From NCBI GenBank assembly GCA_025453655.1, contig JALOPX010000009.1, positions 1 to 35,381 of the forward strand: a DNA stretch of 35,381 bases, in the 5' to 3' direction. This document shows, one piece after another, positions 1 through 3,524 of this stretch. Position numbers and translations under genes: made by a program. The notes beneath the pieces were generated by a model. That model made no database searches and was not told the origin of the DNA. It saw nothing but the letters and a program-made list of their open reading frames with translations. How positions within the stretch are numbered: the first letter of the stretch is position 1; each line of letters starts with the position of its first letter. The stretch comes from Candidatus Krumholzibacteriia bacterium (GTDB lineage: Bacteria; Krumholzibacteriota; Krumholzibacteriia; Krumholzibacteriales; Krumholzibacteriaceae).

Positions 1-4
1 AAAA

Positions 5-10
5 TATAGA
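5..10 (+). promoter_or_regulatory. Possible -10 element for the structured RNA
   Basis: TATAGA matches the sigma70 -10 consensus at four of six positions. It would place a transcription start at about 16-18, right where the closing helix of the candidate RNA begins. The -35 box would lie outside the window, so this is half a promoter at best. It mainly supports reading the RNA on the plus strand. Confidence 0.3.
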
Positions 11-18
11 AGGCTTTT

Positions 19-208
19 TTGCCGCCTGGTTAATGGGGGTCTTTTCCATCCTACCAAACCCCATCTCTTCCCCTAGGAGATGAGCCGCTTATCTGGAAGA
101 GACCTCCGCCTGACTCGTCAGGTTCGACTGTCAACGCTCCGGTAAGAGTCCCTTAGGATCGCTTTCCACTTCTTAGGAGCTGTAGTTGAATACAGGCGGC
201 AATTTTTA
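19..208 (+). ncRNA. Candidate structured non-coding RNA, family not recognised
   Basis: No convincing ORF fits here, but base pairing is extensive. A closing helix joins 19-28 to 193-202 (core GCCGCCTG with CAGGCGGC). A 14-bp helix joins 35-48 to 94-107 with two G-U pairs, and contains a 6-bp hairpin (62-67 with 77-82). A small hairpin is at 109-122 (CCTGA/TCAGG). A long bulged hairpin spans 136-180 (GCTCC..TAAGA with TCTTA GGAGC). ATCCTA at 48-53 could pair with TAGGAT at 154-159 as a pseudoknot or an alternative helix. AATTTTTATT follows the closing helix, as expected for a plus-strand intrinsic terminator. I looked for signatures of tmRNA, RNase P, SRP, 6S and common riboswitches and found none. 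It could be a standalone sRNA or the leader of the downstream gene. Helices are seen in the sequence; function is unknown. Confidence 0.5.
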
Positions 209-215
209 TTGTAAT
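186..215 (+). promoter_or_regulatory. Possible sigma70 promoter of the barrel-like protein gene
   Basis: TTGAAT (186-191) and TGTAAT (210-215) are separated by 18 bp. They match the -35 and -10 consensus at four and five positions. The start would be near 222, about 60 nt before the ATG at 284. The -35 box overlaps the 3' end of the candidate RNA, so the RNA and the gene may be separate units. Confidence 0.4.
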
Positions 216-3451: not shown

Positions 3452-3524
3452 AGGGGTGTAGCTCAACTGGTAGAGCATCGGTCTCCAAAACCGGGGGCTG
3501 CGGGTTCAAGTCCTGCCACCCCTA
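3452..3524 (+). tRNA. tRNA-Trp (anticodon CCA)
   Basis: A complete cloverleaf can be drawn. The acceptor stem is AGGGGTG/CACCCCT, the D stem GCTC/GAGC, the anticodon stem TCGGT/ACCGG with loop CTCCAAA, and the T stem GCGGG/CCTGC with loop TTCAAGT. The anticodon CCA (3485-3487) reads UGG, so this is tRNA-Trp. The 3' CCA tail is not encoded (the next bases are CAT), so it must be added after transcription. The base in discriminator position 73 is A, whereas bacterial tRNA-Trp normally carries G73. The gene lies 73 nt upstream of trpS, the synthetase that charges it. Confidence 0.97.

Follow-up and report, generated by a model that had tools for sequence, protein, structure and literature searches.

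The left edge of the window (the whole stretch of 35,381 nucleotides analysed here) holds a segment that folds into several helices and lies in front of genes for surface proteins, which raises the question of whether it encodes a functional RNA and what such an RNA would do. An earlier note had proposed an unrecognised structured RNA of about 185 nt, either a new sRNA or a cis-regulatory leader of the surface-protein genes. The evidence presented below is wholly comparative, and the genomes compared are mostly MAGs.

A structured RNA at the left edge of the window

All the helices of the earlier note, including a 14-bp helix and a closing helix, and the U-rich tail were present in window 1-215. 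The minimum free energy of this segment was -77.1 kcal/mol, against a mean of -56.9 (SD 4.1) for dinucleotide shuffles (z = -4.96), and none of 200 shuffles was as stable. The parts of the RNA are listed here by window coordinates.

1-19, + strand: 3' end of a variable 5' leader; contig C13 (locus L075) carries the remaining leader, the promoter and the regulator gene, all further upstream
20-207, + strand: structured noncoding RNA body of about 190 nt, from P1 to the terminal U-tract, recognised by fold z, order-wide homologues and covariation
20-29/192-201, + strand: closing helix P1; both sides change in 5 of 10 pairs, and 95.9% of cells are paired
35-47/95-107, + strand: helix P2, 13-14 bp; both sides change in 8 of 13 pairs, and 94.4% of cells are paired
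50-55, + strand: invariant single-stranded CCTACC, overlapping one strand (48-53) of a proposed pseudoknot with 154-159
59-91, + strand: invariant core CCCCATCTCTTCCCCTAGGAGATGAGCCGCTTA, 33 successive unvarying columns in 22 sequences, holding hairpin P2b
62-69/75-82, + strand: inner hairpin P2b, inside the invariant core; unvarying, so that its pairing has no covariation test
108-113/118-123 (span 108-123), + strand: hairpin P3; both sides change at 2 pairs
125-129/184-188, 136-140/176-180 and 144-147/163-166 (span 125-188), + strand: branched arm P4; both sides change in all 5 outer pairs
145-156, + strand: invariant P4 loop AGAGTCCCTTAG, unvarying in the 22-sequence alignment
203-207, + strand: U-tract directly 3' of P1, a probable intrinsic terminator

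As judged by eye from the alignments, no reading frame was conserved across this stretch, in agreement with the earlier view that no protein accounts for it. An open reading frame from AUG 81, within the core, was rejected, its frame being lost across indels.

The RNA was not recognised as a member of any known family. The sole match to Rfam 15 (4227 families) at the gathering score in the whole window was a tRNA at 3452-3524; with relaxed thresholds, positions 1-400 gave chance matches only (E of 3 or more). Neither 6S RNA (RF00013) nor RNase P RNA (RF00010) matched in the window, and both candidates were rejected; the genome has its own copies at G000:C153:3727-3911 (6S RNA, 84.9 bits) and G000:C121:2700-3066 (RNase P RNA), and both RNAs are also present in most relatives. 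The RNA described here resembles 6S RNA in its length of about 190 nt, its single copy and its closing helix, but its fold is multibranched and the 6S model does not recognise it.

Distribution among genomes

By BLAST, a homologue was found in 24 of the 25 genomes of the order (two families), one copy each, with 76-89% identity. A covariance model (R1) found the same 24 genomes of the order and zero homologues in 55 other Candidatus Krumholzibacteriota genomes. The sole genome of the order without the RNA, G012, has a fragmented assembly and also lacked, at the cut-off used, the response regulator described below. Near the most similar response regulators encoded outside the order, the best R1 score was 12.8 bits and the core sequence was absent, compared with scores of 65-216 for real members. 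An exact scan for the core in 85,462 species genomes hit 15 contigs, labelled Candidatus Krumholzibacteriota/Krumholzibacteriia, UBP1, Latescibacteria/Latescibacterota or just 'bacterium', several of which seemingly belong to genomes of the order already found. The core pattern matched nowhere in viral contigs.

Compensatory changes in the helices

Twenty-two full-length members were aligned by sequence with MAFFT (alignment A3; mean pairwise identity 76%, 89 of 225 columns invariant). The consensus fold consisted of P1, P2 with P2b, and the branched P4, to which P3 was added by hand. Over the 56 pairs counted, 95.0% of cells were paired; the figure was 91.1 +/- 0.3% for shuffles and fell to 39-56% once the helices were shifted out of register. 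Both sides changed at 21 pairs (P1 5, P2 8, P3 2, P4 6) against 10.1 +/- 1.8 in shuffles, counts that do not represent independent events, the alignment rows being related. The figure for P3 is an undercount, as the alignment slips at this hairpin: by eye, CCTGA..TCAGG was replaced by CCCGGAAACGGG or CCTGGCAACAGG in relatives, that is, CCUGA..UCAGG in the RNA became CCCG-GAAA-CGGG and CCUG-GCAA-CAGG. Because compensatory changes were found in P1, P2, P3 and P4, we conclude that selection has acted on RNA pairing. Most inner P4 pairs are, like P2b, unvarying and therefore provide no test of pairing. With neither strand of P2b altered in any of the 22 sequences, the rigid invariant core looks more like a site for protein binding or tertiary contacts than like a simple antisense seed.

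For the pseudoknot that had been proposed between 48-53 and 154-159, the 6-base complementarity does exist; the alignment, however, contained zero compensatory changes at these positions, and 3 of the 22 sequences break an outer pair. It is a possible element unsupported by covariation.

On comparative grounds, these results established that the RNA is real: it is order-wide, single-copy and structured. With no Rfam match, with covariation and with conservation throughout the order, the earlier proposal of an unrecognised structured RNA is strongly supported. Neither of the two outcomes that the earlier note had named as refuting it, a match in Rfam or helices free of compensatory changes, was observed.

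The RNA lies downstream of a response-regulator gene

The window begins at a contig edge (C196), and its first 99 bp recur at a terminus of contig C13 (G000:C13:1-99). Through this 99-bp assembly overlap, the sequence upstream of the RNA could be read on contig C13. Positions 1-99 are thus at an assembly break, and the promoter of the RNA and the response-regulator gene are missing from the window.

Directly upstream of the RNA, on the same strand, is a gene for a REC-LuxR (LuxR/NarL-type) response regulator (PF00072 and PF00196). An orthologous regulator (50-71% identity) precedes the RNA wherever the upstream sequence could be read and is its sole constant neighbour. In family f1, the regulator gene is itself preceded by a gene for a PAS/GAF/HisKA_3 histidine kinase; in family f2, no kinase was found beside the regulator gene. 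The link between regulator and RNA is therefore tighter than that with the kinase.

The downstream gene, in contrast to the constant regulator, is of three unrelated kinds: the type found in the window (284/1112), a B106-type gene (106 aa), or an M20 peptidase gene directly. The window genes at 284-1096 (270 aa) and 1112-1684 (190 aa, with a lipoprotein-like signal) showed no Pfam match, and at the equivalent place in other genomes they are swapped for unrelated ones. These data bear on the suggestion that the RNA is a cis-regulatory leader of the surface-protein genes. Acting on the surface or lipoprotein genes that follow, such a leader, or conditional terminator, would halt transcription at P1 and the U-tract unless a ligand or protein remodelled the fold; the terminator-like end of the RNA and the same-strand gene that often begins within a few hundred bases 3' would fit this arrangement. 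With three unrelated kinds of gene in this position, however, a surface-gene leader is unlikely. The RNA does not vary with the gene that follows, and loci L023 and L024 carry, beyond P1 and the U-tract, a second strong terminator-like hairpin before the next gene. Taken together, we regard a cis-acting leader as quite improbable.

A conserved promoter-like element between the regulator gene and the RNA

Between the regulator gene and the RNA, the sequence AAATRRGK-N-CCYATNG or a close variant was present at every readable locus. It shows imperfect dyad symmetry (p = 0.01, column permutation) and in each of the 22 aligned sites a TANNNT -10-like box follows after exactly 20 bp; the site of locus L019, which is outside the 22-site alignment, also fits this spacing. 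When genomes were searched with the full promoter pattern, 15 of them had a match at the RNA locus and 5 matches lay elsewhere; a reversed-pattern control gave a similar number, 7. The architecture of dyad plus -10 box is almost absent elsewhere in these genomes. A transcription start about 7 nt after the box would put the centre of the dyad near -43, a typical activator position.

This promoter revises two details of the earlier description. The -10 box that had been marked within the window is not conserved in relatives, and the conserved promoter is found beyond the edge of the window, about 150 nt farther 5'. Transcription from it would give a primary transcript longer than the earlier figure, about 280-380 nt instead of about 185 nt, of which, in relatives, 90-177 nt before P1 would be a variable leader counted from the predicted start. 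At the other end, a U-rich run follows P1 in 22 of 22 aligned homologues. Start and end of the transcript are both placed by inference.

Two patches recur in the otherwise variable leader. A polypurine GGAGG-like patch lies about 42-56 nt before P1 in most members (e.g. L012, L017 and L004), and a GGGAC-like patch lies about 20-30 nt past the predicted start in most members, without a consistent partner. Three explanations for such sequences were rejected. As the Shine-Dalgarno sequence of a small ORF, GGAGG lacks a start codon at a consistent distance (by eye); its pairing with the RNA body was inconsistent across sequences; and pairing of leader GGGRYU with AGUCCC in the P4 loop, attractive by eye, gave duplex energies no better than those of dinucleotide shuffles (mean z -0.16).

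The promoter also bears on whether there is a separate RNA at all. The regulator gene lies directly 5' on the same strand at all loci, as would be expected if the conserved sequence were the 3' UTR of the response-regulator mRNA or regulatory DNA. Against either stand the compensatory changes, which indicate selection on RNA pairing, and the conserved promoter element, with its fixed -10 spacing, between regulator and RNA. We consider this reading very improbable.

A different possibility is a global RNA of the RNP type, or a 6S-like housekeeping RNA, that merely adjoins the regulator gene, with the core as a protein-binding or catalytic centre; this would include a scaffold, an RNA that binds polymerase or ribosomes, and a ribozyme. 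Single copy, near-universal presence in the order, 33 consecutive invariant nucleotides and a multibranched fold are all consistent with such a role. It is nevertheless unlikely in our estimation: the RNA has a dedicated promoter with a regulator-type dyad, true 6S and RNase P RNAs are encoded elsewhere in the genome, and restriction to one order is unlike known housekeeping RNAs.

In genome G006, a second promoter of the same type was noticed at G006:C1:3077381-3077531 (L100:1501-1651), with the dyad AATAAGGGATATTCCCTATAG followed by a -10-like box. Behind it lies a candidate RNA about 100 nt long, a compact hairpin with a U-tract (-39.3 kcal/mol) that was seen in G006 only and may also be controlled by the same regulator.

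Comparison with the Gac-Rsm circuits

In the GacA-RsmY/RsmZ and UvrY-CsrB systems, a LuxR/NarL-type regulator acts at a palindromic activator site 5' of a noncoding RNA whose transcript ends at a terminator. The locus described here shares this layout in its type of regulator, its palindrome and its terminator end, binding by the regulator being putative here. Unlike RsmY/RsmZ and CsrB, the RNA adjoins its regulator gene; it is a single multibranched molecule whose invariant core spans 33 nt, in place of repeated GGA hairpins; and CsrA is missing in this genome and in most carriers. The GacS/GacA-RsmY/Z circuit is described in PMC4866733.

Specifically, CsrA (PF02599) was found neither in this genome (G000) nor in G006, a genome assembled as one contig, and most carriers of the RNA lacked it too; it was present in 6 of the 21 genomes of the order tested. 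An RNA that sequesters CsrA/RsmA as a sponge, in the manner of RsmY/Z or CsrB, could be imagined from the adjoining LuxR-type response regulator, the several GGA triplets in the RNA and the similar circuit layout, but the missing CsrA largely refutes it. In addition, invariant positions extend beyond the GGA loops, and no csrB or rsm family of Rfam matched. This reading is barely credible: by Rfam match, CsrA partner and predicted structure, the RNA is not a member of the Rsm/Csr family. An Hfq-dependent base-pairing sRNA was likewise rejected, PF17209 being found in 0 of 25 genomes while controls were detected.

Discussion

We think it reasonably likely that the locus encodes a noncoding regulatory RNA of this order that is activated by the adjacent response regulator and acts in trans. 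According to this proposal, the phosphorylated regulator, with the PAS/GAF kinase encoded beside it in most genomes, would bind the dyad at about -43 and activate transcription. The resulting RNA, about 280-380 nt long, would end at P1 and the U-tract, and its folded 3' body would act in trans via the invariant C-rich and AGAGUCCCUUAG segments by binding a protein or target RNAs. The response regulator probably switches the RNA on, as judged from gene order and promoter architecture; the dyad could equally serve in repression. Near-absolute conservation of both strands of P2b goes beyond the need of a simple base-pairing sRNA and counts against our preferred reading, as does the failure to find the chaperone Hfq.

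More tentatively, and on the doubtful side, the locus may represent a new class of regulatory RNA, in which a two-component system has a dedicated, rigidly conserved RNA machine that works without Hfq or CsrA and is neither an antisense nor a sponge sRNA. An RNA machine in this sense could be a protein scaffold, a ribozyme or a ligand sensor.

Candidate structured RNAs have been collected by comparative genomics before, as in a set of 104 motifs (PMC2864571). Like those candidates, the RNA reported here is lineage-restricted and structured and shows covariation; unlike them, it can be linked to a particular candidate regulator and promoter, and it matches none of the 4227 Rfam 15 families. In the literature searched, we found no report on RNA biology from Krumholzibacteriota. 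The RNA thus represents an undescribed family with strong comparative support in a little-known phylum, and its defined candidate regulator, operator and promoter make its function testable. If the proposal is true, a two-component output RNA that has a near-invariant core and works independently of CsrA and Hfq would add to the ways in which bacteria are known to link signalling to RNA.
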